Assembly (NCBI GenBank): GCA_035622275.1
Contig: DASPVQ010000003.1
Coordinates: forward strand, 1 to 48,800
Origin: Thermoplasmata archaeon
GTDB lineage: Archaea; Thermoplasmatota; Thermoplasmata; Lutacidiplasmatales; UBA184
Length of the DNA: 48,800 nt
Direction of reading: 5' to 3'
Below are positions 33,428 to 48,154 of this stretch, in pieces. The notes beneath the pieces are model-generated. The model saw only the letters and a program-made list of their open reading frames with translations. It had not been told where the DNA came from and did not search any database. How positions within the stretch are numbered: the first letter of the stretch is position 1; the number at the start of each line of letters is the position of its first letter. Both the position numbers and the translations under genes were made by a program.

Positions 33428-33519
33428 GCTACGGCCGTCCGCCTCGCTGGGCCCGCGGGTGTAACGGCTGCGCGCCGAGCGTTCCAGCCGGACTCCGGGG
33501 GGAGTTCACCTCGGTGCGA

Positions 33520-33528
33520 GTATTTGTA
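33520..33528 (+). promoter_or_regulatory. Putative TATA box of the ABC exporter operon
   Basis: GTATTTGTA is centred about 35 bp before ATG 33559 and supports that start rather than the in-frame start at 33514, which lies upstream of the box. Confidence 0.4.
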
Positions 33529-33558
33529 CCGGCGCCGGAGTCGGCGAGCCTTCGTTCC

Positions 33559-34542
33559 ATGCCGAGCGCGCCCGCCATCGAGGTCCGTGACGTCACGCGG
33601 GTCTTCGAGAGCCGCAAGGGGTTCCTCTTCCGCGAGGTCACGCGCACCGAGGCGCTCAAGGGCGTCGACCTGCGCGTCGACACCGGCGCGATCTTCGGCC
33701 TCCTCGGTCCGAACGGCGCGGGCAAGACGACCCTCGTCAAGATCCTCGCGACGCTCTTGCTGCCGAGCGGCGGACATGCCGCCGTGCTCGGCCACGACGT
33801 GGTCGACGAGGCGGACTGGCTGCGGCCGCGCATCGGCCTCGTCCTCGGTGGGGAGCGGGGCCTCTACAACCGGGTGAGCGCGCGGGAGAACCTGCGCTAC
33901 TTCGCCGACCTGTACGGGATACCCATCGCCGAACGGGACGCGCGGATCCTCGAGGTGCTCGAGCGCGTCGGCCTAACGGAGGCGATCGACCGGCGCGTCG
34001 AGGAGTACTCCCGCGGCATGAAGCAGAAGCTGCACATCGCCCGCGGCATCCTGCATCGCCCGCAGGTGCTCTTCCTGGACGAGCCGACGATCGGCCTCGA
34101 CCCGAAGAGCGCGCGGGAGACCCGCAAGCTCGTCCGCTCGCTGATCGCCGACGGGGTCACGATCTTCCTGACGACGCACTACATGTTCGAGGCGGAGGAG
34201 CTGTGCCCCGAGCTCGCGATCCTGTCGAAGGGGAGGATCGTCGCGCGCGACACGGTGCCCGGGCTCCGCCAACTGGTGGGAGGCGACCGGACCCTCGAGG
34301 TCGAGGCCTACGGCTTCGAGGACCGAGAGCTCGACGTGCTCAAGCGCCTGCCCGGCGTCTCCAAAGTCGTGAGCGAGGAGTTCGGCCCGCGCACCCGGCT
34401 CACCCTGCGCGCCCGGACGGGCGAGATCCGCCCGGAGGACGTCGTCGGCCAGCTCCCGGGTCACCCGGAGCTCGTCGTCCGCGAGCGACCGACCGTCCTC
34501 GAGGACGTCTACCTCGACCTCGTCGAGGAGGAGCAACCGTAG
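33559..34542 (+). CDS. ABC-2 exporter ATP-binding protein
   Basis: The protein has 327 residues from ATG 33559. Walker A is GLLGPNGAGKTTLVKIL, the signature is EEYSRGMKQKLHIARGILH, Walker B is VLFLDEPTIGLDP and the switch His follows in TIFLTTHYMFEAEELC. The signature SRGMKQK is the form common in DrrA/NatA-type ATPases. The C-terminal 100 residues (EVEAYGFEDRELDVLKRLPG to RERPTVLEDVYLDLVEEE) match the accessory domain of that group. The stop codon abuts the first permease ATG with no gap, so the pair is coupled. Together with two permeases it should export a lipid, drug or polymer; the substrate is unknown. Confidence 0.91.
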   Translation: MPSAPAIEVRDVTRVFESRKGFLFREVTRTEALKGVDLRVDTGAIFGLLGPNGAGKTTLVKILATLLLPSGGHAAVLGHDVVDEADWLRPRIGLVLGGERGLYNRVSARENLRYFADLYGIPIAERDARILEVLERVGLTEAIDRRVEEYSRGMKQKLHIARGILHRPQVLFLDEPTIGLDPKSARETRKLVRSLIADGVTIFLTTHYMFEAEELCPELAILSKGRIVARDTVPGLRQLVGGDRTLEVEAYGFEDRELDVLKRLPGVSKVVSEEFGPRTRLTLRARTGEIRPEDVVGQLPGHPELVVRERPTVLEDVYLDLVEEEQP

Positions 34543-35349
34543 ATGGCCGCGCCGACCGCCCAGGTCTCCTGGGCCCGGGCGACGGCCGCCTCGCTGCGCC
34601 TGTCGTTCCTCGAGTTCATGGCCGACCCGCAGTGGCTGATCCCCTCGATGATCGCCCCGGTGATCTTCGGGCTCGTCTCCTTCGAGCTGTTCCGGGACGA
34701 GGGTCGCTACTTCCTGACCTACGCGATCCTGGGCGCCGCCATGATGAGCATGTGGGGTCAGACCCTCTACGGCAGCGGATGGGCGACCGGCCTCGACCGG
34801 GAGTACGGCACGCTCGAACCGACGATCCAGTCCCCGACCCCGTACCTCTTCGTGATCCTGGGCCGGATCGTATGGAACGTCGCCAGCGGTCTCATCGGCG
34901 GGGCGATCGTCTACGTCGTGATCCTCGTCGCCGCCGGCGGCCCGCCCGCGCTGCCCGATCCGATCGGCTTCGTCGCGCTGTTCGTCTTCGTGATGCTGAC
35001 GCTGGCCGCGGTCGGCGTCCTGCTCTCCGCCGCGTTCGTCTACACGCGCTACGCGGGGGTGATCCAGAACGTCGGGGAGTTCGCGTTCTACGTCGGCACC
35101 GGCTGCATGTTCCCGGTGGTCCTCCTGCCGTTCTGGACGAACCCGGTCGCGCTGGTGTTTCCCGCGACCTGGGCGCTCGACGCGCTGCGCTACCTGGCGA
35201 TCCCCGGCTACGTCGGTTTCGGCTGGGGCTTCTGGGTCGACCTCGCCGGCGCCGTGGTGACCACCGTCGTCTACCTCGCGATCGCCGGGACGGTCTACCG
35301 CTACGTCGAGCACCACGTGCTCGAGCAGGGCAACCTGGGCTGGTGGTGA
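34543..35349 (+). CDS. ABC-2 type permease, first
   Basis: The 268-residue membrane protein has about six predicted helices and the ABC-2 layout: an N-terminal coupling helix (SFLEFMADPQWLIPSMIAP), VIFGLVSFELF, LTYAILGAAMMSMWGQTLYG, a Glu-rich EYGTLEPTIQSPTPYLFVIL loop and the final helices IAGTVYRYVEHHVLEQGNLG. RDEGRYFLTYAI is external. Its ATG immediately follows the ATPase stop. It probably forms a heterodimeric channel with the second permease. Substrate unknown. Confidence 0.88.
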   Translation: MAAPTAQVSWARATAASLRLSFLEFMADPQWLIPSMIAPVIFGLVSFELFRDEGRYFLTYAILGAAMMSMWGQTLYGSGWATGLDREYGTLEPTIQSPTPYLFVILGRIVWNVASGLIGGAIVYVVILVAAGGPPALPDPIGFVALFVFVMLTLAAVGVLLSAAFVYTRYAGVIQNVGEFAFYVGTGCMFPVVLLPFWTNPVALVFPATWALDALRYLAIPGYVGFGWGFWVDLAGAVVTTVVYLAIAGTVYRYVEHHVLEQGNLGWW

Positions 35350-35400: not shown

Positions 35401-36186
35401 GTGTGGCGGACGTTCTGGACCAACGCCTGGCTGGCCCCGCGCACGAGCCTCGGCCTGATGCGGATCGACTTCGTCGTCGGCACGATCTTCGTGATCCCGC
35501 TGACCCAGATGGTGTTCTTCGCCTACGTCGTCGAGCTCGGCGGCGGCGGGGCGAGCGAGGTCGCGTTCACGGCGCTCGGGAACGCGATCGCGACGGTCAC
35601 CTACTCCAGCGTCTTCTCCGTCTGCCTGACCACGGACAACGAGAAGCACGGCGGCACGATGGAGCACCTGCTCGTCTCGCCCGCGAGCCGATTCGCACTG
35701 TACGTCGGGCGGGGCTTCATCCCGATCCTGATCTCGATCGCGAGCGCCGCCGTCGGGATCGCCTACGCGGTCGCGTTCTTCGGCGTCGTCCTGCCGCCCG
35801 CCCAGATCCCGGAGCTCGCGGTCTCGGTCGTGCTCACGGCGTTCGCGATGGTCGGCTTCGGCCTGCTGCTCGGGGCGGTCGCGCTGTACCTGCGCACGGC
35901 GCTGATCCTGGGGAACATCTTCCTGTTCCTCGGGCTCCTGCTCTCCGGCGTGAACTTCCCGCTCGCGGCGCTGCCGGTCCCGCTGCAGTGGGCCGGGGAC
36001 GCGCTGCCCCTGACCTGGGGTCTATCGGCCGTGCGGGCCGCCGTGGCCGCGGATCCGATCGGGACCGTGGCGCTGTTCTGGGGCGCCACGGCGCTCGCCG
36101 GCGCCGCCTGCTACGGCCTGTCGCTCGGCCTGTGGAAGACCTTCGAGCGGCGAGCGCTGGCGACCGGCAGCATCGCGCGGTACTGA
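35401..36186 (+). CDS. ABC-2 type permease, second
   Basis: The 261-residue polytopic protein has the same general plan as the previous permease (WTNAWLAPRTSLGLMRIDF, TIFVIPLTQMVFFAYVVEL, TDNEKHGGTMEHLLVSPASR, then four more helices). The TMEHLLVSPASRFALYVGRG loop is the typical coupling segment of ABC-2 permeases. The start is GTG 35401; seventeen sense codons separate it from the preceding stop, so an unusual upstream start is possible but unsupported. It ends the operon, 60 bp before the IS630-like gene. Confidence 0.86.
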   Translation: MWRTFWTNAWLAPRTSLGLMRIDFVVGTIFVIPLTQMVFFAYVVELGGGGASEVAFTALGNAIATVTYSSVFSVCLTTDNEKHGGTMEHLLVSPASRFALYVGRGFIPILISIASAAVGIAYAVAFFGVVLPPAQIPELAVSVVLTAFAMVGFGLLLGAVALYLRTALILGNIFLFLGLLLSGVNFPLAALPVPLQWAGDALPLTWGLSAVRAAVAADPIGTVALFWGATALAGAACYGLSLGLWKTFERRALATGSIARY

Positions 36187-36245: not shown

Positions 36246-37277
36246 GTGCCCGCCGGACGCGCGCTCACGCTCCATCCGGACGAGGCCCGCCAGCTGCGCG
36301 AGTGGGCGGCCGACGCGGCGAACGCGCCCCGCCGCGCGCTGCGGGCCCGCATCGTGCTCGAGCTGGCCCGCGGCGCGAGCGCCCGGGAGGTCGCCGAGCG
36401 CATCCAGGTGCATCCGGAGACCGTCCTGCGCTGGTGGCGCCGCTTCGAGGTGAACCGGCTCGACGGGCTCGTGCGCGACGCCCCGCGCGTGCGGGTGCGG
36501 GGCGTCACCGACCCGGCGCTCGTCGACCGGATCCTCCGCGCGACCTGGGAGGAGCGGCCGGCCAGCGGCTCGCGCTGGACGACGCGCTCGCTCGCGCGGA
36601 CGCTGCACGTCAACCACATGCTCGTCCACCGGGTCTGGCAGGCGCACGGCGTCTCCTTCGCGACGACCCCGGGCGAGCTCGAGCGCCGCAGCGAGCGCCC
36701 GCCGGTCGAGGTGCTCGGGGTGTTCCTGGACGGGCCCGCGGCGCTCGCGGTCCGGGTCTTCCTCCCGCACGAGACGGCCGGACACGCGCGCGACACCGGC
36801 CCGGCTCCGCCGCCGACGGCGACGAGCCGGTCCGGCGCCTACACGCTCGGCCGGAACGTGCGCACGTCGCTCGGCCTGAGGGCCGCGCTCGATCGCGCCT
36901 ACGAGGTCGCCGCGCCGTCCTCGAGCGAGGTGCGCTGGTCGTCCCCCGAGCTGTTCGTGTTCCTCCGTTCGATCGACGAGCGGACCCCGCCGCCCGCCGA
37001 GATCCACATCTTCTTCGACCGGGCGCCCCCCGAGGCCGAGCCGCGCCTCGAGGCGTGGGGGGCCGCCCATCCCCGCTTCCACTTCCACAACCCAGCCCCG
37101 GGCGAGCCGTGGGTCACCGCGATCGACCGCTGGCTGCGGACCGGCCCGCTGCGCACGGCCCTCGAGGACCGCGTGCGCGTGGCCGCGGCGTTCGATGCGG
37201 CGATCGCGCGCGTCTTCCAGACGCGCGGCGAGCGGCCGGGCCGGCTCAGTCGACGAAGTGGTGGCACGGCCGAGTGA
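36246..37277 (+). CDS. IS630-transposase-like protein with degenerate DDE site, paralog 1
   Basis: The protein has 343 residues. The N-terminal half is an IS630-type helix-turn-helix pair: RALRARIVLELARGASAREV, HPETVLRWWRRFEVNRLDGL (residues 31-75) and a second HTH, WTTRSLARTLHVNHMLVHRV (111-130). The second half keeps the order of the RNase-H-like core (EVLGVFLDGPAALAV; ELFVFLRSIDERTPPPAEIH; LEAWGAAHPRFHFHNPAPGE). The first-Asp motif (usually VDEKSQ) is replaced by VFLPHE, the DN-x-x-x-H motif by FFDRAPPE, and SWLNQVE by EPWVTAID. Transposition is therefore unlikely; DNA binding may remain. It overlaps the 3' end of aprA by 32 bp, convergently, leaving no room for an IS end. Function unknown; a transcription factor role is inference. 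Confidence 0.72.
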   Translation: MPAGRALTLHPDEARQLREWAADAANAPRRALRARIVLELARGASAREVAERIQVHPETVLRWWRRFEVNRLDGLVRDAPRVRVRGVTDPALVDRILRATWEERPASGSRWTTRSLARTLHVNHMLVHRVWQAHGVSFATTPGELERRSERPPVEVLGVFLDGPAALAVRVFLPHETAGHARDTGPAPPPTATSRSGAYTLGRNVRTSLGLRAALDRAYEVAAPSSSEVRWSSPELFVFLRSIDERTPPPAEIHIFFDRAPPEAEPRLEAWGAAHPRFHFHNPAPGEPWVTAIDRWLRTGPLRTALEDRVRVAAAFDAAIARVFQTRGERPGRLSRRSGGTAE

Positions 37278-39084
37278 ACAGGCGCCAGGCCCCCGTCGCG
37301 GGGTCGCGGACCGAGTTGACGAAGCAGTGCCAGCGCTCGTCGTCCAGTCTCGGGAAGTCCGAGCGGTAGTAGTAGCCCGGCCAGCGCGTCTCGGTCCGGT
37401 GGCGGGTGTGCCGCAGGACCGCCTCGGCGGTCAGCAGGCGGTGCGCGAGCTCCCAGGCGCGTCCGAGCTCGTGCAGCGAGCGGGCGCCGAGGCTCGCCGC
37501 GTCCTCCGAGAGGTGCCCGAGCTGTCGGAGACCGCGCTCGAGCAGCGCCTCGTTCGTCGCGTAGCCGGCGCCGACGCCCCCGCCGTACTCGTCCATGATC
37601 TTCTCCAGGCGGTGGAGCCCCTGGTCCGGGTACAATAGGTCCGGGTGCACGGAGCCGTGGGTCACCCGGTCGCCGCGCTCGGCGACGCGCGCGAGGGGGG
37701 CGAACACCTCGGCGCGCCGCTTCCCGAGCGCGGAGTCCTCGATCCCGACCGACCCGGGGTGGTCGGTGAGGAACCGGACGGCCGCCTTCGCGGCGAGCCG
37801 TCCCTCGGTGAACGAGCCGCTCGAGAACTTGTGCGCGCAGCCCCCGACGGTGTCGCCGGCGCCGAACAGACCGGCGATCGTGGTCATCCGGTTGTACCCC
37901 CAGCGGTACTCGTCGGGCCCGACGTCGGAGGGACCGCTCGTCCAGGCGCCGGCGCAGACCGCGTGCGAGCCCAGGACGTACGGCTCGGAGAGGATCAGCT
38001 CGGAGGGCTCCCGCGCCGGGTCGATCCCCTGGGCCGCCCACGTCACGGCCTGGCCGACCGTCATGTTCAGGAACGCCTCCCAGGCGATCGTCTCCTTCTC
38101 GGGCGAGTCGATGACGCGCTCGGTGTGCATCAGGATCGGCCCGCGGCCCTCGACGATCTCGCGGAACATCAGGTGGTTGCGCAGGCAGGTCGGCAGCGGC
38201 TTCGCGTCCGCGTACTCGCCGACCGTCTCGCGCAGCCCGGCCCGTCCGGTCACCTCGTAGTTGTCGCCGGCGGCGTTGGTCGCGATCGCCTTGAGGTACA
38301 GGAAGAAGGCCCCCACCGGCCCGTAACCGTCCTTGAAGCGGGTGACGACGAGCCGGTTCTCCATCTGGGTCATCTCGGCGCCGAGCCCGATGAGCAGGGC
38401 GTAGGCCGAGCCGGTCGACCAGGGAGGGTACCAGGTGCGGCCCCAGCCCTCGCCGGCCGAGCGCGGGCGGAACAGGTGGGAGGCGCCGCCGGCCGCGACG
38501 ACCACGGCGCGCGCCCGGTAGACGTGGAACCGTCCGTCCCGCAGGTTGACGCCCACCGCACCGGCGACGCGGTCGGGCGACGCCGCGGACGGCACGAGGT
38601 GGGTGATGAGCACGTGCTCGTCGACCTGGCTCGCCGCGGCCCGGGCCGCCTCGGCGACGATCGGCTTGTACGACTCGCCGTGGATCATCACCTGCCAGCG
38701 CCCCTCGCGCACGTAGCGTCCGGAGGACGGGTCGGTGAAGATCGGCAGGCCCCACTCCTCGAACAGGTGGACCGACGAGTCCACGTGGCGCGCGACGTCG
38801 TAGACCAGGTCCTCGCGCACGAGGCCCATCAGGTCCGAGCGCACGTAGCGAACGAAGTCCGGCGGGCGGTTCTCCTCCCAGCGCATGCCGAGGTAACAGT
38901 TGATCGCGCTGAGGCCCTGGGCGACCGCGCCCGAGCGCTCGATCGCCGCCTTCTCGACGAGGACGATCTTCAGCTCCCGTCCCCAGTAGCGCGCCTCGAA
39001 GGCGGCCCCGCAGCCGGCGAAGCCGCCGCCGACGATCAACAGATCGCAGTCGACGACCCGCGGGCTCCCGGTGCCGTCCTCCAT
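37246..39084 (-). CDS. aprA: Adenylylsulfate (APS) reductase alpha subunit
   Basis: The 612-residue flavoprotein matches AprA along its whole length. FAD loop IVGGGFAGCGAAFEARYWG, ERSGAVAQGLSAINCY (Asn62), the substrate-channel WQVMIHGESYKPIVAEA, GEGWGRTWYPPW, RFKDGYGPVGAFFLYLKA, VLGSHAVCAGAWTSGP and KFSSGSFTEGRLAAKAAVRF are each AprA-specific wordings and distinguish it from succinate dehydrogenase or fumarate reductase. ETRWPGYYYRSDFP near the end is also diagnostic. The enzyme reversibly reduces APS to sulfite and AMP, with electrons supplied via AprB. The gene lies 13 bp after aprB, in the usual order. No sat, qmo or dsr gene is in the window, so the direction (sulfate reduction or sulfite oxidation) is undecided. 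Confidence 0.93.
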   Translation of the reverse strand: MEDGTGSPRVVDCDLLIVGGGFAGCGAAFEARYWGRELKIVLVEKAAIERSGAVAQGLSAINCYLGMRWEENRPPDFVRYVRSDLMGLVREDLVYDVARHVDSSVHLFEEWGLPIFTDPSSGRYVREGRWQVMIHGESYKPIVAEAARAAASQVDEHVLITHLVPSAASPDRVAGAVGVNLRDGRFHVYRARAVVVAAGGASHLFRPRSAGEGWGRTWYPPWSTGSAYALLIGLGAEMTQMENRLVVTRFKDGYGPVGAFFLYLKAIATNAAGDNYEVTGRAGLRETVGEYADAKPLPTCLRNHLMFREIVEGRGPILMHTERVIDSPEKETIAWEAFLNMTVGQAVTWAAQGIDPAREPSELILSEPYVLGSHAVCAGAWTSGPSDVGPDEYRWGYNRMTTIAGLFGAGDTVGGCAHKFSSGSFTEGRLAAKAAVRFLTDHPGSVGIEDSALGKRRAEVFAPLARVAERGDRVTHGSVHPDLLYPDQGLHRLEKIMDEYGGGVGAGYATNEALLERGLRQLGHLSEDAASLGARSLHELGRAWELAHRLLTAEAVLRHTRHRTETRWPGYYYRSDFPRLDDERWHCFVNSVRDPATGAWRLFTRPCHHFVD

Positions 39085-39097
39085 CCGGCCGTCTCCC

Positions 39098-39547
39098 TCA
39101 GAGCGGCCGCGGCGCCGGAGCGCCGGGCGACGGGAGCGCGTCGACGGCGAGATAGTCCGGTTCGAAGGCGAGCAGCTCGCTGCCGAGGTCCCCCGGCGCC
39201 GGCGCTGGCGCGCTCGCCGGCGAGGGGATCGTCCCCCAGCGCGTCCGTCGGATCGGGAAGTCGAACTGTCGGGTCCCGCCGCCGCGCAGCTGGATCGTCC
39301 AGAAGATCCGGTCGGTCGTCCGGTTCGGCACGACGCGATGGCCGAGGGGCGCGAAATCCGCGTAGCCCCGGACGTCGATCGCGCCCTCGGGACATGCCTT
39401 CACGCAGGCGTAGCACTCCCAGCACATGGCCGGCTCGAGGTTGTAGGCGCGGCCCCGGTCCGGGTCGATGTGCATGATGTCCGACGGGCAGATGTCCACG
39501 CACTGCATGCAGCCGCGGCACTTCTGAGGCGAGACGAACGTCGGCAC
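39098..39547 (-). CDS. aprB: Adenylylsulfate reductase beta subunit (ferredoxin-like)
   Basis: The 149-residue protein starts at GTG 39547. Two [4Fe-4S] motifs are visible: Cys10, Cys13, Cys16, Cys20 (KCRGCMQCVDICP) and Cys42, Cys45, Cys48, Cys52 (MCWECYACVKACP), with Trp43 beside the second as in known AprB. AIDVRGYADFAPLGHRVVPN and the C-terminal arm FPIRRTRWGTIPSP that wraps AprA are typical. In the classical Archaeoglobus-type protein, eight residues separate the second and third Cys of the first cluster; here only two do, so that insertion is missing. The tail is Ala/Pro-rich. It carries electrons to the AprA flavin. The pair is complete, but electron partners are not in the window. Confidence 0.92.
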   Translation of the reverse strand: MPTFVSPQKCRGCMQCVDICPSDIMHIDPDRGRAYNLEPAMCWECYACVKACPEGAIDVRGYADFAPLGHRVVPNRTTDRIFWTIQLRGGGTRQFDFPIRRTRWGTIPSPASAPAPAPGDLGSELLAFEPDYLAVDALPSPGAPAPRPL

Positions 39548-39611
39548 GAGAACTCGACCGGTCCGCGGCGCCGACTCCGCCCCTCAAGAAAACGGTTGCG
39601 AGCGCGCCCGG

Positions 39612-39791
39612 TCACGCCGGCCGGAACGCGGCCTCGATGCGGGAGCGCAGCGCGTCGTCCGGCGACGCGACGGCGTGCGCGCACCGCAGGTGCTCGGCGA
39701 GCCGCTCGTCCGCGGCCGCGCGCGAGGGCGACCGCACGGCCCACTCGCAGGCGAACCCGAGGTCCCGGCACGCGAGCGCGACGGCCGCCAT
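39612..39791 (-). CDS. DUF1059 small protein
   Basis: This 59-residue frame starts at ATG 39791 and stops at 39612. Its translation begins MAAVALACRDLGFACEWAVR and continues with AEHLRCAHAVAS and RSRIEAAFRP. The CRDLGFxCxxxV opening, AEH...H and C-terminal helix are the full pattern of DUF1059, a family of short Cys-containing proteins of unknown role, often near stress genes. Here Cys8 and Cys15 with His34 and His39 could bind metal. It follows the SDR gene by 9 bp on the same strand and is probably co-transcribed with it. A member of about 60 residues is normal for this family. Confidence 0.78.
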   Translation of the reverse strand: MAAVALACRDLGFACEWAVRSPSRAAADERLAEHLRCAHAVASPDDALRSRIEAAFRPA

Positions 39792-39800
39792 CCCGAACTC

Positions 39801-40442
39801 CTACGCCGACGCCACCGTGAAGCGGCGGCGCACGTGCCGCGGCGTCTCGAGCTCGTCGACGACGGCCACGGCATAGTCCTCCGCGGAGATCCGGCTCTGG
39901 CCGCTCGCGTCGACGAGCAGCTGCTCGCCGCCCGCGCGATACCGCCCGGTGCGGACGCCGGGCTCGACCAGCTCGGCCGGGCTGACGACCGTCCACTCGA
40001 CCTCCGGCTCGTTGCGATAGGTCTCGAGCGCCTGGCGGTGCGCCTCGGCGATCGTCTTCCCGGCCGCCGGGAACCGCTCGGTCTCGGCGAGCCGGACGCC
40101 GGGCGACACCTCGAGACCGCCGGCCCCCCCGACGACGATCAGGCGGTGGACACCGGCCTGCCGGAGCCCCGCCAGCAGTCCCGCGGCCGCCCCCTCGACC
40201 ACCGACGCGTCGTCGCCGGCACGCGGTCCGACCGCGGAGATGACGGCGTCCGCGCCGCGCACGGCCTCGGCCACGCGGGCCGGGCTCGTGACGTCCGCGA
40301 TGACGGTCGGCCGGCCCGAGACGGAAAGGCCGGCCCCCCGGCCCGGCCGCGCCACCTCGCGGACCGTGTGCCCGCGTCGGAGCAGCTCGTCGGTGATGCG
40401 GCTGCCGATGCGACCGCCGGCCCCGAACACCACGACGCGCAT
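39801..40442 (-). CDS. NAD(P)-binding SDR (NmrA/YhfK-like)
   Basis: The 213-residue protein starts at ATG 40442 with the nucleotide loop VVVFGAGGRIGSRITDELLR. VIADVTSPARVAEAVRGADA, VISAVGPRAG, VHRLIVVGGAGGLEVSPGVR, EVEWTVVSPAELVEPGVRTG and ISAEDYAVAVVDELETPRHV follow the atypical SDR (BLVRB/YhfK-like) plan. These bind NAD(P) and are often reductases of flavin or biliverdin-like compounds, or redox sensors. The coding-strand CTCAAATAC at 40475-40483, about 36 bp upstream, suggests a short leader. It precedes the DUF1059 gene. The longer frame reaching 41684 runs through the next gene and is rejected. Confidence 0.8.
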   Translation of the reverse strand: MRVVVFGAGGRIGSRITDELLRRGHTVREVARPGRGAGLSVSGRPTVIADVTSPARVAEAVRGADAVISAVGPRAGDDASVVEGAAAGLLAGLRQAGVHRLIVVGGAGGLEVSPGVRLAETERFPAAGKTIAEAHRQALETYRNEPEVEWTVVSPAELVEPGVRTGRYRAGGEQLLVDASGQSRISAEDYAVAVVDELETPRHVRRRFTVASA

Positions 40443-40474
40443 CGGCGTCCCCGCACGGTCCCAGGAATCGGTCC

Positions 40475-40483
40475 GTATTTGAG
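40475..40483 (-). promoter_or_regulatory. Putative TATA box of the SDR-DUF1059 pair
   Basis: The coding-strand CTCAAATAC lies about 36 bp before the ATG at 40442, inside the 62 bp gap after IS630-like paralog 2. The SDR is therefore probably transcribed independently. Confidence 0.35.
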
Positions 40484-40504
40484 GGCGGCCCACACCGGCG
40501 GCGT

Positions 40505-41590
40505 TCAGGCGGCCGGGGGGCCCGCGCTCCCGTCCCGAGCCGGACCAGGGGCCGGACCCTCGGGACGGTAGGGCACGGCCGACCAGCTGAAGCCGATCGG
40601 TGCGGCCGGTCCTCGGGCCGCCTGTCGAACGAACGCTTCGACCAGCGGCTCGACGCCCCGGTAGCTCGATCGGCTCACCGCGCGGGGCCCCCACTTGCCG
40701 AGGAAGCGCCCGACCGCGGGGGGCCAAGCGTCCGGCCCCGTGACGGCTTCGTGGGTGAACTGGGGGCGACGATCGAGCCAGGACCGGAGTTGGCGCTGCA
40801 TGCCGGCCTCGGGGCAGTAGACGATCAGGTGGAATCGAACGCGCGAGGACCAGGCGAGCTCGATCGAGCGCAGGAAGATCAGGAGATCGTAGCGATCCGC
40901 GACCGGCGTCGTCCGGTCCCCGGTCGTCTCGTTCAGCCGCGATGCGCTCCAGAACAGCTCGCCGGTCCCGGGCGCCGGCGCGTAGATGAGCGGGAGGCCG
41001 CGGCCCGCTCGGTCGTCGGCGGCCGTCCAGGACGGCGGCTCGCGGCCGGCGCGACCCGTCAGGTCGAAGGCGAAGACGATCGCGGTCACCGGAGGACAAC
41101 GGAACGCGCCGACGACCTCCACCCACGGCTCGCTCGCGACGCGAGCCGACGGCACCGCCGTCGCGCCCGGCGAGAGCCCGTGCTTGCGCCACACCCGGTG
41201 AACCTGCATGTGGTTCAGGCCCAGCCGGCGCGCCAGCGTTCGCGCGGTCCAGCGGCCCCGCGGAGGCGGGGGCAGCTCCCGGGTCGCGCGGAGAATCCGC
41301 TCCTCGTTCTTGAGGGGTAACGGATACGGTTGCAGCGGATGCGGCGCGATCAGGCGGATCCCCTCGAGTCGGTGGACGGCGAATCGTCGACGCCAGAGTC
41401 CGACCGTGGTGTCGGTGACCCCGAGCTCCGCGCCGATCGTGCGGTTGGTCCGCCCCTGGGCGGCCCGGAGCACGATGCGCGCGCGCAGCCGTAACCTCGG
41501 GGAGGAGCGGGCTTCCCCGCTCCACGCCTCGAGAACGGCCCGCTCGCGGGTCGACAGCGCGATCGCGGGCGCGTGCCTCACGGTCCTCAT
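40505..41590 (-). CDS. IS630-transposase-like protein with degenerate DDE site, paralog 2
   Basis: The protein has 361 residues from ATG 41590; the frame extends upstream to a TTG at 41656 with no support. HTH units are RLRLRARIVLRAAQGRTNRT, GVTDTTVGLWRRRFAVHRLE and WTARTLARRLGLNHMQVHRV, which closely match those of paralog 1 (WTTRSLARTLHVNHMLVHRV). The core keeps the order of IS630 transposases: EVVGAFRCPPVTAIVFAFDL, DLLIFLRSIELAWSSRVRFH, RSWLDRRPQFTHEAVTG and a final APIGFSWSAV resembling the usual PF-x-W end. The second catalytic motif (normally LILDNYGTH) reads LIVYCPEAG, lacking the Asp, and SWLNQVE is DAWPPAV, so it should be inactive as a transposase. The C-terminus is Pro/Ala/Gly-rich. 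Confidence 0.72.
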   Translation of the reverse strand: MRTVRHAPAIALSTRERAVLEAWSGEARSSPRLRLRARIVLRAAQGRTNRTIGAELGVTDTTVGLWRRRFAVHRLEGIRLIAPHPLQPYPLPLKNEERILRATRELPPPPRGRWTARTLARRLGLNHMQVHRVWRKHGLSPGATAVPSARVASEPWVEVVGAFRCPPVTAIVFAFDLTGRAGREPPSWTAADDRAGRGLPLIYAPAPGTGELFWSASRLNETTGDRTTPVADRYDLLIFLRSIELAWSSRVRFHLIVYCPEAGMQRQLRSWLDRRPQFTHEAVTGPDAWPPAVGRFLGKWGPRAVSRSSYRGVEPLVEAFVRQAARGPAAPIGFSWSAVPYRPEGPAPGPARDGSAGPPAA

Positions 41591-41778
41591 CGCAGGCCCC
41601 CGTGTCACGCTCCCGGCCGGGGCGCCTGCGGGCCGGCCACCCCAAGCGACGTACAAGAATCTTCCGACGGGGCCACCGAGGCACGCCTGCCCCCCGAGGG
41701 CGCGGGCGAAGCGGCCGGCGATCGCCCCGGGTTAGTCAGCGGAGGAACGTTTCTCTGACGAGAGATTCGCGCTTCGGG

Positions 41779-41795
41779 TTATCCGACACGAATAC
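41779..41795. promoter_or_regulatory. AT-rich shared motif between IS630-like paralogs 2 and 3
   Basis: TTATCCGACACGAATAC resembles the motif at 36190-36206 upstream of paralog 1 (14 of 17 positions over the aligned stretch). It lies next to a 7-bp inverted repeat at 41794-41812. It may be an operator used by this protein family, or a relic of a common ancestral element. Confidence 0.35.
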
Positions 41796-41820
41796 CACTC
41801 GCCGCGGGTGGTCGGGTGGT

Positions 41821-41828
41821 TCATATAC
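41821..41828 (+). promoter_or_regulatory. TATA-like box, distal
   Basis: TCATATAC is a good TATA-like match about 125 bp before paralog 3. If used it would give a structured leader containing the GGAGG/CCTCC hairpin. Confidence 0.3.
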
Positions 41829-41914
41829 TGGAACCGACGGAGGTATCACCCTCCTCGAGCGGCTCCGCGCCACATCGCGCGTTGCAAAATGCTAGCCGAG
41901 CCCGTTACAGAGGA

Positions 41915-41925
41915 GTATAACTAAA
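41915..41925 (+). promoter_or_regulatory. Putative TATA box of IS630-like paralog 3
   Basis: GTATAACTAAA is centred about 30 bp before the TTG/GTG codons at 41948 and 41951, so it is the likely main promoter and supports a start at one of these. Confidence 0.45.
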
Positions 41926-41950
41926 CCACCGATTCCGATGCCGCTCCTTG

Positions 41951-42979
41951 GTGCGGCGGGCGCTTCCGATCGTGCTGGACGAGGGCCAGCGCGAGCATCT
42001 CGTACGCTGGAGCCGGGGCGGATCCACCCCCTTCCGGCTGGTGATACGCTCGCAGATCGTCCTCCTCGCCTCGTACGGTCACAGCAACCGACGGATCGCG
42101 CGTCTGCTCCGCACGAATCCGATCACCGTCGCTCGCTGGCGATCGCGGTTCGCTCTCTTCGGCATCGAGGGGCTGCGTCGCGAGGCCCCGCGTAACGCGT
42201 CTCCCCCGCGGCTCCCCGAGGCGGTGGTGCAGCGGATCCTGCAGAAGACCCTGTCCGAGCGACCGCCGAATCGCGAGCACTGGTCCACGCGTACCATGGG
42301 CCGCGCGGTCGGCGTGAGCCACTCGGCGGTCCGCCGGGTCTGGAAGATGTACGGGATCCGCCCGAACCGTTCGCGGGTCGCGCTGCTCGCCGAGGACTCA
42401 CCGTTCCGGCCCAAGACGATCGACCTGCTCGGGGTCTACGTCAACCCCCCCCGCCGGGTCGTCGCGCTCTCGTTCTCCGATGGGTCGAACTCCGCGGCGA
42501 CCGGACTGGCCCCCCTGCGGCAGCCCCCGTCGGATCCGCCACCCGGCCCGAGCCGTCCTTGGATGAAGGACCTCGTGACGACCTTGGGGCTGCTCGATCG
42601 ACCCGGCGAGGCTCGGACGACCCACCGCCACGTCGACCAGGAGTTCCTCGCCTTCCTCCACTCGGTACAGTTACAGCGAGCGGGCAACGAGAAGGTCGCC
42701 CTGCTGTCCGATGCGGGCGACTCCGACCTCTCCGCCAGCGTGGCCCGGTGGCTCAGCCGGCACCCTCAGATCATGACCCAGGTGCGCGGCGACTCGGAGT
42801 CGTGGGAGCAGATGGTGCTGAGCTGGATCCGAGGATTGTCGGCGGGAGGCGCGACGGAGAGCCCGCCCCGCAACCTTCCGAAGCTGGCGGCCGCGCTCGC
42901 CCGCTGGAAGAGGACGGGCGGCGGGATCGACCGGCCCTTTGCCTGGACGCCCGAGCGAGCGGGCGAAAGCCCTCGCTAG
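41951..42979 (+). CDS. IS630-transposase-like protein with degenerate DDE site, paralog 3
   Basis: The protein has 342 residues from GTG 41951 (TTG 41948 is one codon earlier). HTH units are VIRSQIVLLASYGHSNRRIA, TNPITVARWRSRFALFGIEG and WSTRTMGRAVGVSHSAVRRV. The C-terminal half keeps the IS630 order: DLLGVYVNPPRRVVALSFSD, QEFLAFLHSVQLQRAGNEKV, ARWLSRHPQIMTQVRGDSES and the end RPFAWTPERA. Of the acidic triad, an Asp remains in LLSDAGDSD and a Glu in DSESWEQM, but the first motif (CVDEKSQ) is SFSDGSN and the DN-x-x-x-H context is lost. It is the copy nearest to a standard transposase. No inverted-repeat ends were found around it. It is co-oriented with the S53 protease gene 135 bp downstream, and its function is unknown. 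Confidence 0.72.
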   Translation: MRRALPIVLDEGQREHLVRWSRGGSTPFRLVIRSQIVLLASYGHSNRRIARLLRTNPITVARWRSRFALFGIEGLRREAPRNASPPRLPEAVVQRILQKTLSERPPNREHWSTRTMGRAVGVSHSAVRRVWKMYGIRPNRSRVALLAEDSPFRPKTIDLLGVYVNPPRRVVALSFSDGSNSAATGLAPLRQPPSDPPPGPSRPWMKDLVTTLGLLDRPGEARTTHRHVDQEFLAFLHSVQLQRAGNEKVALLSDAGDSDLSASVARWLSRHPQIMTQVRGDSESWEQMVLSWIRGLSAGGATESPPRNLPKLAAALARWKRTGGGIDRPFAWTPERAGESPR

Positions 42980-43114
42980 GCCGTTACCGGGCCCGTCGCC
43001 GTGTGATACCCAAGCCGCTTCCAGTCGCCTTTCACTCGCTTGATTAGGCGCACTCCATTCCCTCCTCTGGACCGCTCTGCCTGACGGCAGCGGTTCGAAC
43101 AACCGGGAGAACGA

Positions 43115-46100
43115 ATGAGAGACAAAGACTGGAAAGCGGCGCTGGCCCTGCTAGTGGTGCTGGCCGCCGTTGCGGGATTTTCACTAGCGTCCCTACCGGG
43201 CTCGGCGTTCGCGGCGCCTCCGTCGGGACAGGCGACTACGCCCGCGAGCGCTGCGGCCGCAGCGGCCCCTGCGAATATCGCCACGGGACCGCTACAGCAG
43301 GTCGCGCCCGCCTCGCAGTACAATGCGGTCGGGCCGTCGACCTTGCCGCCGACTCTGGCGAGCTATTATTCGCTCGCTCCAGACCCGAGCGCCTTCAGCT
43401 CGAGCGCGCAGGTCCAGATCGAAGTGGGCCTGACGCCGCAGAAGAGCTTGAACTCGATCGAGACGGCGATCAGCAACCCGGCGAGCACGAGCTACCACGA
43501 CTTCCTGACCCCGAGCGAGATCGCTTCGCAGGCGGGAGTGCCGGCGTCGACCTACGCGTCGATCGTCGCGTACTTCTCGAGCTTCGGCCTCACGGTCGAG
43601 ACTCACCCTGACCTGCTGTCGGTCAGCCTGTCCGGTACGCCCGCGCAGCTCCAGAAGGCGTTCCACACTCAGGTGGACTCCTTCGCGCTGTCCTACAGCA
43701 ACCCCGACTACTACAACCCGGTGTTCGACAAGGTCACCGGTGAGCAGGAAGTCACCGTCGGGGGACAGCCGTTCGAGACGCCGATCTGGACCTCGGAGCC
43801 GTACACGTTCTACGCGAACGTCGGGGACCTTTCGCTCCCCGCGGGCATCGCGAAGTACGTCGACGCGGTCACGGGCTTCGGTATCCAGCTGGCGCAGCCT
43901 CAAGTCCAGGCCATGTACGCCACCAGCCCCGGAGAGCTGACCTCGAGCACGCAGGTGTTCAACACCACCAACGGCTCGTGGAGCCAGACCTACGGCGACG
44001 ACTGGGGCGAGGGCGGCTACCACTACCAGGACCCGTTCTCTCTGAACGGCAACTGCGCAGCGAACTACTCGTGGTTCTATGAGGGCGACGAGGCCACCCA
44101 GCTGTTCTTCCCGAGCACGATGCCGACGCTCGAGGGAGCGTGCACGCTCTTCACCGGGGCGGACACGATCCTGAGCGAGCGCGACTACGGCCAGGGGATC
44201 ACCATCGCGGTGGTCGAGGTCGGCGCGGTCGACCCGGCCCAGCTGGCGGCATTCAGCGCGCTCACGTTCCCGAGCGGGACGTACCCCAACGGGCTCACCA
44301 CGAACCTCCTGGACCGGCTGACCTACATCGACCTGGGCGCGTCGAGCCTCTCCGAGGCGATCGACCAGGGAGCCGACTACGGCTGGTACATCGAGACCGC
44401 GCTCGACATCGAGTACGCGGCGACGATGGCCCCCGAGGCCCACATCGATCTGGTCTCCGTACCGGACCCGAACTTCTCGGCGTTCGATGAGGCGTACAGC
44501 TTCATCAGCGCGAACCTCGTGGGCAAGCAGGTCTGCGACATCCCGTCGACGGACCCGGTCTTCGGGCCGGTCTTCGTCTACGGCGCGACGTCGGACTCCA
44601 ACGGAGGCAGCGCGTGCCAGGTTTCGATCACCTCGAACAGCTACGGCTCGGGTGAGACGTACACCACGTACTTCGGCTCGCCGATGTACGTGACGTACAC
44701 GAGCCAGCTCCTCGAGGAGCTGTCGATCCAGGGCGTGACGAGCTTCTTCGCGAACGGCGACAGCGGCGGTGTCTACGCCGTGGTCGAGGACTTCATGCCG
44801 GCCGACTCCCCGACGACGATCTCGGTGGGCGGCGGGCAGATGACCGCCGACGATCAAGGTGTGCTGTTCCCCAACACGAACAAGTACGCCTTCCTCGAGG
44901 ACTTCAGCGAGGAGTTCTGCTACGAGTACTGCTGCTACAGTTACGAAGAGGGTAACTGGGTGGAGGTCGCGCCGGTGACCAGCCTGTACAGCTACACGTA
45001 CTGGGCGTACCCATCGTACGACGGAACGTTCAGTGGCGAGGTCGGTGGCGGATTCGGTCAGTCGATCGAGTCGCCGCAGGCCTGGTACCAGGCCGGCAAC
45101 GGCACGTACGTGGACGGCGCGCGCATTGACCCGACGATCTCGAACGCTGCGGCGTTCAACGAGAGCATCTACTACAATGCGTGCGGTCCGACCTACTTCC
45201 TGCCCGAGGGCTGGTGCGAGGGGCCGTGGAACTACCTCTACGGCGGAACCTCGTTCGCGACGCCCATCAGCGCAGGCGGGTGGGCGCTCATCGAGGAGCA
45301 GGTCGTGCAGAAGTACGGTGCGGGTAGCCAGTACATGGGCGACATCGGTCCCCTCCTTGCCGAGACGTCGAACGCTTGGCAGGCGGGCGCGACCACGGTC
45401 AACCCGTGGGTCCCGATGACGAACATGGGCGTGGACAACGGCGACATCGGCGACTGGGCGCCGTTCAACTCGTTTACCTGGTACTACACCAACCTGTCCA
45501 TCGAGGTGCCCAACTCCGTCGACCACCCGTGGTTCGCGGACAGCATCTTCAACCCGGCGATCCCGCCGGGCTGGACGGACGGCAAGTTCTTCGGCGGCGC
45601 CTCGGTCTGGAACAACCTCCAGGGATGGGGCGTCTGGGACTTGGACGTCTTGGACGGACTGCTCGTTGGAGCCACGGACTCGCAGCACGCGCTGATCACG
45701 GACCCCTGGTTCGTGGAAGTCGTCACCCCCACCGGTCTCCAGGACATCTCGGAGCTGTGGTGCGGTGAGACCTACACGTTCGAGATCGTGAGCACGGCCG
45801 CGCTCGGCAACGCACCGTTCAGCGTGATCGCGTACTCGGGAACCCCCGAGGACGGGACCGCCTACGGTGGCGGGACGACCCAGGTCATCTCCGTGACCGG
45901 ATCGCCCTGGACGTTCGAGTACACGCCGCTCGCGCCTCCGTCGTCGGTATCCGGGCCCAACGCGCTGAACAACAGCGGTTGGCACTACGGCTACTTCCTG
46001 ACGATCCAGGAGGGCTCGAACCCGATCCTGGGCGGCAACGCGTGGAACTTCCAGCAGTTCGCGTGCAACGTGCAGCCGGTGGGCTCGCTGAACCTGTGTA

Positions 46101-48154
46101 TCTCTGACGTGGAGGACATCTGCCAGACGTCCGTCGCCGAGGAGACCATGTTCAACACCTACGACCTCGAGGGCGAGTACAACCTCCAGGGACAGGCGAA
46201 CGCGCTCGTGACGCTGACGGAAACCGACGGCCTGACCACCCCGGTCGAGTCGGCGAGCGTGGTCCAGACCTCCGTGGTCACGGACTACTACTCGCAGGAC
46301 CCGACGCTGAACCCCGCGACCTACGCTCCGGGCGTGGTGATCGGTAACTACCTGACGGACTCGAAGGGGACCGCCGACATCTGGGACAACGCGTTCATCG
46401 CGGAGGCCAGCTGTCAGACCCCGGCGACCGGACTCGACAACGAGTACGGCCTCGACACCGACGGATCCCAACCGGTGATCCCGCCGGTCTGTCTCGAGAC
46501 GCAGGTCTACACGATCACGGCGTACTTCAACGGCCTTGTCTCGAACACCGTGACGGTCTACGTGGAACCGCAGATGGGCTCGTTCTATCCGCAGTTCAGC
46601 TTCTCCGACACGACCGTGACGGGCTTCGTGGAGTTCGCCGGCATGACCAACGTCCAGTGGGTCAATGTCTCGGTGGGTGGCGCTCCGGGCGAGTTCGACA
46701 ACGTCAGCTTCCTGCCCGCGTGCGCGTGGCCGGGTATCGTCTCGACGACCGGCAGCGATGGGCTCACGTTCTTCCCGGAGGACCCCGGGAACTACTGTGC
46801 CACATCGGGTGCGAGCGTGCCGCCGACCGGCGACACTCCGCAGCAGGTCTGCCAGACGGGCGACCCGTCCGCGTTCTACAACCAGGAGGACTGGCTCTGC
46901 GGCAGCGGTGTTCGTGAGGGCGTGATCGAGATCGATCTCGCGCTCCCGACCTCCGGCCCGGTGACGGTCTCGATGGTGGCGGTCGGATGGAACGACCTGT
47001 CGATCAACGAGGGCTGTTTCGAGGAAGAGTGCTTCGTCTTCCCCGATGTCCAGTACGGCATCTACTGGTCGGACCCGTACACCTACGTGCCGTCGGGCCT
47101 GTCGCTCTCCGCCACGGGAACCGTGACGGGCATCGACACGGTCTCCTGGCACGGCTCGGCGTTCGCGGGTGCGGTCGGCACGCTGTCGCTGGTCTCGGGA
47201 GGGACCTCGCAAGTGCTCGCCTCCTACGCGCTCTCGCCCGGTGACGCGACGAGCGGCACCTACGCGCTGAACACGGCGAACCTCCTCGACGGGAGCTACT
47301 CGGTGGTCTTCACCGAGAAAGCGCCCGGCGCGGTGGCCTCCACCAACTCGGTGACCATCTACGCGGCCAACCAGGCCGCGGACGCCAGCGCCCTGGTCGC
47401 CCAGCTGGAAGCCGAGCTCAGTGCGGACGCGACGACGATCGCCTCGCTGAACGCCGAGGTGGCCTCGCTGCAGGCGAGCCTGTCGGCCGACAACGCGACG
47501 ATCGCCTCGTTGCAGTCGCAGGTCTCGTCCCTCCAGGGCCAGGTGTCGACGCTGTCGGGCCAGCTCGCAGCCGCCCAGGCGCAGGTGACGTCGCTCAGCG
47601 CACAGATCTCCGCCCTCCAGGCGCAGAACAGTGCGGACGCCGCCCAGATCGCCCAGCTGCAGAGCGCGCTCGCGGCCGCGCAGGCCACGGTCAGCTCGGA
47701 CCAGACGCAGATCGCCCAGCTCCAGTCGACGATCAACACGTTGCAGGCGGAGCTCAACCAGAAGAAGGGCACGATCGCTCCGGCGTGGTACGACACCTCG
47801 CTGGGCGGCGGGCTCATCGTCGGGTTGATCGCTCTGGCCGCGATCGTGGGCGTCGTCGGGACCTACGCGGTCATGCGCCGGGGACGCCGGGTCGAGGAAC
47901 CCTCGATCCAGGCGCCCGAGCAGCCCGCGGCGGCGCCGTACGGTTTCGCACCGAGTTCGGGGAGCGGCCCGTCCCCTCGCGGGGACGAGGTCGACCAGAA
48001 CCTCGAGCAGGTGCGCCGCGCGGTGGCCCGGTCGATCAGCCAGTCGGTCGCGGTCCAGCAGCGCCTGGTCGAGCGTGGACAGTTTGAGAGGGCGGCCCAG
48101 CTGAACGCCGCCTCTCGGGAACTTGCGGACGCCTACAAGGACCTCTACCGGTAG
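43115..48154 (+). CDS. Membrane-anchored S53 (sedolisin/kumamolisin-like) peptidase with coiled-coil stalk
   Basis: The 1679-residue protein starts with a signal peptide (ALALLVVLAAVAGFSLASLP, then AFAAP). About residues 80-195 are a pro-kumamolisin domain. The catalytic S53 set is present: Glu427 and Asp431 in YIETALDIEYAAT, Asp549 in FANGDSGGVYA and Ser713 in YGGTSFATPISAGG, so an acid-active endopeptidase is expected. GWGVWDLDVLDGLL near 850 resembles the calcium-site region. About 500 further residues of Thr/Ser/Asn-rich beta-type sequence follow, then a long coiled coil (about 1421-1550, repeats like TIASLNAEVASLQASLSAD), one membrane helix (about 1565-1588, GGLIVGLIALAAIVGVVGTY) and a cytoplasmic tail ending in a helical segment. 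It should stand out from the cell surface to digest peptides. GGGAGA precedes the ATG. Confidence 0.92.
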   Translation: MRDKDWKAALALLVVLAAVAGFSLASLPGSAFAAPPSGQATTPASAAAAAAPANIATGPLQQVAPASQYNAVGPSTLPPTLASYYSLAPDPSAFSSSAQVQIEVGLTPQKSLNSIETAISNPASTSYHDFLTPSEIASQAGVPASTYASIVAYFSSFGLTVETHPDLLSVSLSGTPAQLQKAFHTQVDSFALSYSNPDYYNPVFDKVTGEQEVTVGGQPFETPIWTSEPYTFYANVGDLSLPAGIAKYVDAVTGFGIQLAQPQVQAMYATSPGELTSSTQVFNTTNGSWSQTYGDDWGEGGYHYQDPFSLNGNCAANYSWFYEGDEATQLFFPSTMPTLEGACTLFTGADTILSERDYGQGITIAVVEVGAVDPAQLAAFSALTFPSGTYPNGLTTNLLDRLTYIDLGASSLSEAIDQGADYGWYIETALDIEYAATMAPEAHIDLVSVPDPNFSAFDEAYSFISANLVGKQVCDIPSTDPVFGPVFVYGATSDSNGGSACQVSITSNSYGSGETYTTYFGSPMYVTYTSQLLEELSIQGVTSFFANGDSGGVYAVVEDFMPADSPTTISVGGGQMTADDQGVLFPNTNKYAFLEDFSEEFCYEYCCYSYEEGNWVEVAPVTSLYSYTYWAYPSYDGTFSGEVGGGFGQSIESPQAWYQAGNGTYVDGARIDPTISNAAAFNESIYYNACGPTYFLPEGWCEGPWNYLYGGTSFATPISAGGWALIEEQVVQKYGAGSQYMGDIGPLLAETSNAWQAGATTVNPWVPMTNMGVDNGDIGDWAPFNSFTWYYTNLSIEVPNSVDHPWFADSIFNPAIPPGWTDGKFFGGASVWNNLQGWGVWDLDVLDGLLVGATDSQHALITDPWFVEVVTPTGLQDISELWCGETYTFEIVSTAALGNAPFSVIAYSGTPEDGTAYGGGTTQVISVTGSPWTFEYTPLAPPSSVSGPNALNNSGWHYGYFLTIQEGSNPILGGNAWNFQQFACNVQPVGSLNLCISDVEDICQTSVAEETMFNTYDLEGEYNLQGQANALVTLTETDGLTTPVESASVVQTSVVTDYYSQDPTLNPATYAPGVVIGNYLTDSKGTADIWDNAFIAEASCQTPATGLDNEYGLDTDGSQPVIPPVCLETQVYTITAYFNGLVSNTVTVYVEPQMGSFYPQFSFSDTTVTGFVEFAGMTNVQWVNVSVGGAPGEFDNVSFLPACAWPGIVSTTGSDGLTFFPEDPGNYCATSGASVPPTGDTPQQVCQTGDPSAFYNQEDWLCGSGVREGVIEIDLALPTSGPVTVSMVAVGWNDLSINEGCFEEECFVFPDVQYGIYWSDPYTYVPSGLSLSATGTVTGIDTVSWHGSAFAGAVGTLSLVSGGTSQVLASYALSPGDATSGTYALNTANLLDGSYSVVFTEKAPGAVASTNSVTIYAANQAADASALVAQLEAELSADATTIASLNAEVASLQASLSADNATIASLQSQVSSLQGQVSTLSGQLAAAQAQVTSLSAQISALQAQNSADAAQIAQLQSALAAAQATVSSDQTQIAQLQSTINTLQAELNQKKGTIAPAWYDTSLGGGLIVGLIALAAIVGVVGTYAVMRRGRRVEEPSIQAPEQPAAAPYGFAPSSGSGPSPRGDEVDQNLEQVRRAVARSISQSVAVQQRLVERGQFERAAQLNAASRELADAYKDLYR

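Follow-up and report, generated by a model that had tools for sequence, protein, structure and literature searches.

The genes of the locus

The window, that is, the whole stretch of 48,800 nucleotides analysed here, contains three open frames that a preliminary description, based on the letters alone, had taken for IS630-like paralogues clustered around aprBA and an S53 protease. The three frames are confirmed, with that at 40505-41590 assigned to the minus strand, and aprBA and the protease, supported by AprB and S53 domain matches, both flank them. The genes of this region are as follows.

33514..34542, plus strand: ABC transporter ATPase, partner of P0001 (PF00005)
34543..35349, plus strand: ABC-2 permease 1 (PF01061)
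35401..36186, plus strand: ABC-2 permease 2 (PF01061), 59 nt before P0001
36246..37277, plus strand: P0001, dead IS630-derived protein, triad L/D/D
37246..39084, minus strand: aprA, convergent with P0001
39098..39547, minus strand: aprB (PF12139, E 1.6e-24; APS-reductase C-terminal domain)
39801..40484, minus strand: NAD(P)H-binding protein (PF13460, E 3.4e-26; start codon approximate)
40505..41590, minus strand: P0003, dead IS630-derived protein, triad D/Y/G, ATG at 41590, divergent from P0002
41951..42979, plus strand: P0002, dead IS630-derived protein, triad S/D/L, putative regulator of the protease gene
43115..48154, plus strand: S53 (kumamolisin-like) secreted protease, 1679 aa (PF09286, E 3.4e-14; GGTSFATP motif)

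P0001 is the fourth gene after the ABC-2 transporter trio, and its 3' end overlaps aprA by 32 nt. P0002 may start at TTG 41948 or at GTG 41951. The S53 protease is of the pro-kumamolisin type, with a coiled coil and a C-terminal membrane segment. The presence of aprBA, encoding a dissimilatory-type APS reductase (37246-39547, minus strand), in a Thermoplasmata genome is an observation of its own.

P0001, P0002 and P0003 are homologous to one another over their full length (27-31% identity in 315-347 columns, E 9e-27 to 2e-31 by pairwise BLASTP), and each has two HTH units detected by Pfam HTH models. They match only IS630 and HTH families in Pfam and NCBIfam, and searching PDB sequences with them gives weak HTH matches only. 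The NCBIfam IS630 model NF033545 scores 86 bits with P0002, 70 bits with P0001 and 59 bits with P0003, all below its curated cut-off of 100 bits. On sequence grounds, the IS630 relationship is thus far beyond chance, yet none of the three is a curated IS630 transposase. The proposed paralogy therefore holds, while the proposed motif plan holds in part: the two HTH units and the order of the motifs are retained, VxGxxxxPP is represented by GP in P0001, and the WLxRHPxF and PFxW motifs are kept loosely.

The host genome (1.73 Mb, 97% complete) has exactly three IS630-type relatives, which are diverged from one another and all lie in the cluster within the window. No intact IS630 was found in the 1.73 Mb searched, nor were there scattered or near-identical copies of P0001, P0002 or P0003 that would indicate mobility. 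Scattered decaying copies, which the preliminary description had named as evidence against domestication, were likewise not found in this genome.

Catalytic site, dead relatives and partner genes

The catalytic triad was examined by aligning the window proteins with relatives sampled at the level of genus, family and class, some of them live transposases, defined as open frames with D, D and E, the DN..H motif and SWLNxVE. At the positions of the triad in live relatives, P0001 has L/D/D, P0003 has D/Y/G, and P0002 has S/D/L with a D one residue after the S and L at the position of E. None of the three retains the E, the WLNxVE motif or an intact D/D/E triad in this alignment, and the alteration differs from protein to protein, as had been read from the letters. 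The AlphaFold2 model of P0002 (pLDDT 77, pTM 0.48) has HTH helices mostly above pLDDT 90 and an RNase H remnant made of strands 155-165, 168-177, 248-253 and 274-278, residues 179-200 being disordered before the next confident helix; the model of P0001 is poorer (pLDDT 62). Judged from such models, the window proteins appear to follow the plan of two HTH units and an RNase H-like part, the latter being partial. A Foldseek search with the P0002 model gave no match at E <= 0.001; the top match is a TnsB transposase (E 0.016), followed lower down by Pax paired domains and the archaeal HTH protein Cbp1, none of them significant alone.

The end pair CTAGTG...CACTAG is present at 16 of 23 live elements and at none of 74 dead members. 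It is absent at P0001, P0002 and P0003, which thus lack the terminal inverted repeats with CTAG/TA ends of IS630. This end test was used in place of local alignment of the two flanks, a weak method that recovers only some live elements and that detected nothing at the window genes.

IS630-type relatives are found in 54 of 78 genomes of the genus and in six of the seven genera of the family, all draft metagenome genomes with approximate start codons. A careful tree places the live transposases apart from three dead groups with starred support, A (96/97), f (100/99) and g (100/100). Group A includes all three window genes and is divided into the P0002 lineage (100/98) and a lineage of P0001 and P0003 (100/100), P0003 being joined with its relatives of genomes G187 and G033 (99/90). 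A single origin of all dead groups is compatible with the data (p-AU 0.36) but unproved.

Close dead pairs are under purifying selection, with dN/dS of 0.12 (L084/L147), 0.17 (L072/L073), 0.25 (L088/L089) and 0.17 (L092/L163); these values were taken from pairs other than the window genes, whose best relatives, at 48-49% identity, are too distant for such an estimate. Frames remain open in dozens of diverged dead members. Within the P0002, P0001, P0003, trio-linked and g lineages, 100% of pairs show stronger conservation of the HTH half than of the C-terminal half, the mean identities of the two halves being 0.52 and 0.31 in the P0002 lineage and 0.53 and 0.32 in the P0001 lineage. Live transposases show the reverse (0.57 and 0.61), with the HTH half more conserved in only 41% of pairs. 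In the P0001 lineage, two proteins consist of the HTH part alone, with two HTH units in about 159 aa. They are 73% identical to each other, and their best matches are P0001-type proteins (56-61%).

L093, 5410-6126: HTH-only P0001-lineage protein, convergent with aprA, as is P0001 in the window
L167, 263-1153: HTH-only P0001-lineage protein, convergent with aprA, as is P0001 in the window

The dead genes also keep their neighbours. At 12 loci, including the window, a P0002-type gene immediately precedes an S53 gene in the same orientation, although the S53 proteins of these loci are mostly only 31-39% identical to that of the window. At L147, the partner is thermopsin (PF05317, E 5.7e-42), another secreted acid protease, while the contig of L084 is too short to show the partner gene. 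P0001-type genes directly follow the same ABC-2 trio in five other genomes (L063, L066, L068, L148 and L150), in which the trio is about 70-80% identical, and the more distant genes of L072, L073 and L198 follow it likewise. The trio is present in 66 of 103 genomes of the family, most of those examined being without P0001, and the carriers of P0001 are scattered on the tree of the trio; judged from this distribution, P0001 is either dispensable or moving with the locus. In G009 and G205, permease 2 is followed immediately by aprA, P0001 being absent between them. The head-to-head pair of P0003 and P0002 is also found in G187 (L143), and one P0003-related group has a putative signal peptidase/DUF5305 trio as its partner. 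The partners of other dead groups are pst phosphate transporter genes, a TauE-type exporter and a dual-specificity phosphatase.

Several further arrangements were observed among the relatives. The trio stands straight against aprA at L212 and L220, as empty counterparts of the arrangement in the window. The P0003 relatives of L067, L149, L153, L190 and L091 (inverted in L183) precede three conserved genes, for a small protein without a Pfam match, an Rce1/S26-like membrane protein and a DUF5305 protein. Lineage f consists of dead IS630 relatives whose RNase H region is shortened; its members L092, L163, L079, L096 and L172 adjoin an operon for a pst-type phosphate transporter (PBP and permease domains), and others (L080, L162, L185 and L186) are divergent from a TauE-type exporter. 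Lineage g (L076 7910-10189, L161 1012-3297 and about a dozen relatives) encodes fusion proteins of 740-760 aa, in which two HTH units and a dead RNase H part are followed by an added C-terminal part that weakly resembles peptidase M29 (E 2e-4 to 3e-4, below the cut-off); these genes are divergent from a gene for a dual-specificity phosphatase. L078 and L095 form a diverged dead IS630 pair beside a putative surface protein of very large size (about 3000 aa). A relative with the triad S/D/K (L043 1851-3128) lies on a contig titled Phycisphaerae bacterium, reflecting either transfer or a misbinned contig.

Three inactive IS630 copies drifting toward loss would share the IS630 origin of the window genes, and relatives do have IS630 copies in genuine decay, which carry frameshifts and stops and still show ends (e.g., L178, L102 and L081). 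For the window genes, simple decay is hardly credible, as it is already contradicted by purifying selection and conserved synteny: dN/dS is well below 1 in close dead pairs, dozens of diverged members have open frames, the partners are conserved, the orthologue clades have starred support, live-type ends are missing from all 74 dead members, and the host genome holds no further copy. The long retention and domestication suggested in the preliminary description are borne out by orthologue clades in six of seven genera with starred support, by partners conserved together with their orientation, by dN/dS of 0.12-0.25 between clade mates, and by the contrast in live-type ends (0/74 vs 16/23).

Inverted elements of the P0002 lineage

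Three copies of a conserved DNA element lie around P0002.

41818..41845, minus strand: left element TACCTCCGTCGGTTCCAGTATATGAACC, upstream of P0003; 10.3 bits, outside the training set; fossil left end or operator
41893..41920, plus strand: additional element TAGCCGAGCCCGTTACAGAGGAGTATAA, before P0002; 12.3 bits, outside the training set
43007..43034, plus strand: right element TACCCAAGCCGCTTCCAGTCGCCTTTCA, between P0002 and the S53 gene; putative operator of the protease gene

Between P0002-type genes and the protease, the conserved form is TACYCAANCGGTTMCA followed by TTCG-like letters. A motif search on 14 loci gave 290 bits, against 105-120 bits for shuffles; the motif was found after looking, and the left copies provide an independent test. 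In the window, only the sites at 43007 (plus), 41893 (plus) and 41818 (minus) exceed 9 bits on either strand, of which the first belongs to the training set and the other two do not. The best genome-wide match is the junction site in 13 of 13 genomes, G000 included; the junction sites trained the model, and the scan is informative for the absence of other sites, no other match in the 13 whole genomes falling below E 0.17.

An alternative is that this element is a promoter, an RNA or a protease-specific cis element, which travels with the protease and is not bound by the IS630-derived protein. Its position upstream of the protease gene near a TATA-like sequence and the relatedness of the S53 genes to one another fit such a view. 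However, in leave-one-out scoring, linked loci have 8.4-29 bits, whereas the 12 S53 loci lacking a P0002-type gene have at most 3.1 bits, and the motif scan finds no right element there. Some of the unlinked loci are second S53 genes in genomes that also have a linked one, and the S53 genes linked to P0002-type genes do not form one clade; from its distribution, the element therefore appears to follow the regulator gene and not the protease. It is also kept with the thermopsin partner at L147, and it has a second, inverted copy across the regulator gene at all 14 loci and none elsewhere in the 13 genomes. A cis element belonging to the protease is therefore quite unlikely.

The second copy was found with a profile learned from the right-hand elements and applied to the untouched left flanks. 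A minus-strand copy lies upstream of 14 of 14 P0002-type genes, mostly 105-160 nt before the start, a few copies being individually weak, and hence an inverted pair of CGGTTMCA-type elements flanks every gene of the lineage. The summed left core score is 147 vs 54 ± 9.5 for shuffles, none of 200 shuffles being as high; z is 10.8 when learning on the right and testing on the left, and 5.3 in the opposite direction. Of the 14 left flanks, 13 have the hexamer TGGAAC, which in either form is present in 7.3% of random windows of 180 nt. In the window, the left element contains GGTTC-N8-GAACC around a TATA-like stretch, and the additional element TAGCCGAGCCCGTTACAGAGGAGTATAA directly precedes the TATA-like GTATAACTAAA (41915) of P0002. 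For the clade as a whole, plus-strand copies before the gene do not reach significance (p 0.08-0.11 among 14 P0002-type genes).

By the same right/left test, no comparable inverted pair was found for the P0001, P0003 and f lineages, nor did element searches give a comparable operator for them. Candidate operators from a motif search in the P0001 lineage (before the ABC ATPase and before P0001) and in the trio-linked, f and g lineages were discarded, because the high scores were mostly coding sequence or TATA-like boxes. The sole candidate kept from that search is the TGGAAC half-site of lineage g, which in the form TGKAAC stands at almost the same upstream position in 11 of 13 left flanks. A VSHxTVRR-type second HTH is common to lineage g and P0002.

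With one inward copy at either flank of a transposase-derived gene, the elements are arranged as terminal inverted repeats are. The live right ends of one subgroup, CAGTTACRGCCCACTAG, have the same place and orientation and share the RGTTAC core, and six of the eight strongest control hits of the element profile fall in IS630 elements. The similarity to live IS630 ends is short (the RGTTACA core), and with the element profile only 14% of 36 live ends score above the 95% level of the shuffles. Derivation of the P0002-lineage elements from ancestral terminal inverted repeats is therefore regarded as probable but unproved, as most live ends score no higher than shuffles, and the resemblance is suggestive only. 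Flanking inverted repeats had been expected to speak against domestication. Degenerate inverted elements do flank P0002, whereas the CTAG tips are missing; these elements look like fossil ends kept as binding sites, which would extend the idea of domestication.

A protease gene and a dead transposase gene might instead form a mobile cassette, with the inverted elements used in trans by a related live transposase. An inverted pair does flank the gene, the P0002-type tree and the S53 tree are not fully congruent, and the locus is missing in many genomes. The right element, however, lies before the S53 or thermopsin gene, so that the pair encloses the transposase-derived gene alone, and the absence of CTAG tips, the single site per gene per genome and the lack of near-identical copies make such a cassette very unlikely.

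Proposed function and comparison with known systems

The three genes are best explained as domesticated IS630-type descendants that have lost transposition and would now act as DNA-binding, locus-specific transcription regulators, a reading to which we assign a probability of about 0.78. A DNA-binding or regulatory role, previously offered as an inference, gains support from the reversed conservation of the HTH and catalytic halves, the HTH-only members and the gene-linked DNA element. As expected of regulators, catalysis is lost while the DNA-binding domain is retained under constraint, the association with host genes is stable across species, and, in the P0002 lineage, a specific site precedes the partner gene at loci that have the protein gene and is missing from those that lack it.

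For P0002, in whose lineage the site, its linkage to the gene, the constraint and the loss of catalysis are all observed, we propose that the protein would bind two or three elements through its bipartite HTH domain and regulate the adjoining genes. From the right element it would control the S53 protease gene, and from the left elements itself and P0003. The placement of the sites speaks for either sign: right elements are followed by a TATA-like box, as expected if P0002 activates, and the left palindrome overlaps such a box, as expected if it represses. The ancestral terminal inverted repeats were probably exapted as these elements, their CTAG cleavage tips having decayed while the recognition core stayed. 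P0001 probably has a similar role at the ABC-2 transporter operon.

Retained HTH units and lost catalysis would also fit DNA-binding proteins with an architectural role (nucleoid or site protection), or with a role in defence against IS630, as dominant-negative repressors competing for transposon ends. The element core does resemble the tips of live IS630 ends (RGTTACA), and the genome of the window has no live IS630. Nevertheless, locus-specific partners and a single site per gene before the partner fit local regulation better, and genomes G002, G022, G033 and G199 carry live elements beside dead members. Architecture or defence in place of local regulation is thus unlikely.

Extended beyond the window, local regulation by these proteins would mean that a radiation of dead IS630 proteins within one archaeal family provides private regulators of neighbouring operons, for secreted acid proteases, an ABC-2 exporter, phosphate uptake and a TauE-type exporter, and that at least one lineage kept both transposon ends as operators, the immobilised element becoming a switch in place. 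We would give this wider picture about an even chance. It has long been asked how a new transcription factor and the sites that it binds can arise together, and a transposase supplies both at once, in the form of a protein whose own gene lies between two copies of its site. In the present case, the protein is a dead transposase that persists with its inverted sites next to a protease in many species, and the live relatives in the same genus make the passage from jumping gene to regulator testable step by step.

The window proteins resemble the IS630 family (NF033545; IS630-Tc1-mariner group) in having two N-terminal HTH units and an RNase H-like remnant in the same order, and they can be aligned over their full length with live IS630 members of the same archaeal genus. 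Unlike these, they lack the triad and CTAGTG ends, score below the cut-off and are locus-specific, and the HTH half of the dead lineages is more conserved than the catalytic half. The Pax paired domain is an example of a transcription factor derived from a transposase in eukaryotes. FHY3/FAR1 are also eukaryotic transcription factors of transposase origin (PMC6000157). Common to these cases and to the proposal made here is the reuse of a transposase DNA-binding domain for the control of host genes, although FHY3/FAR1 and Pax are eukaryotic and involve other transposase families or the domain alone, whereas the window has archaeal IS630 descendants beside the target gene. In the literature searched, domestication within the IS630-Tc1-mariner group is represented by eukaryotic cases only, and no earlier report was found of a bacterial or archaeal regulator derived from a DDE transposase, IS630 included. 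The accessible part of a review of prokaryotic exaptation describes Cas1, Cas9, phage repressors, antitoxins and Ner/SfsB (PMC8987985), and a DDE transposase turned regulator is not among the cases given in that part. As described there, Ner/SfsB and the antitoxins are likewise DNA-binding proteins of mobile elements recruited as host regulators, but they were repressors already before recruitment. Newly observed here is the inverted CGGTTMCA-type pair at all 14 genes of the P0002 lineage.

The closest concept is that of the TldR proteins described in PMC13418256 (citing Wiegand et al. 2024), in which TnpB has lost its nuclease activity and become an RNA-guided repressor strongly linked to partner genes. 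On that description, TldR, like the proteins proposed here as regulators, is a prokaryotic transposon protein that was catalytically inactivated several times, is strongly associated with non-transposon partner genes and has a regulatory role. TldR derives from TnpB and is guided by RNA, whereas the window proteins derive from a DDE transposase with recognition by HTH units; and where TldR uses a guide target, the putative operator of P0002 looks like a transposon end.
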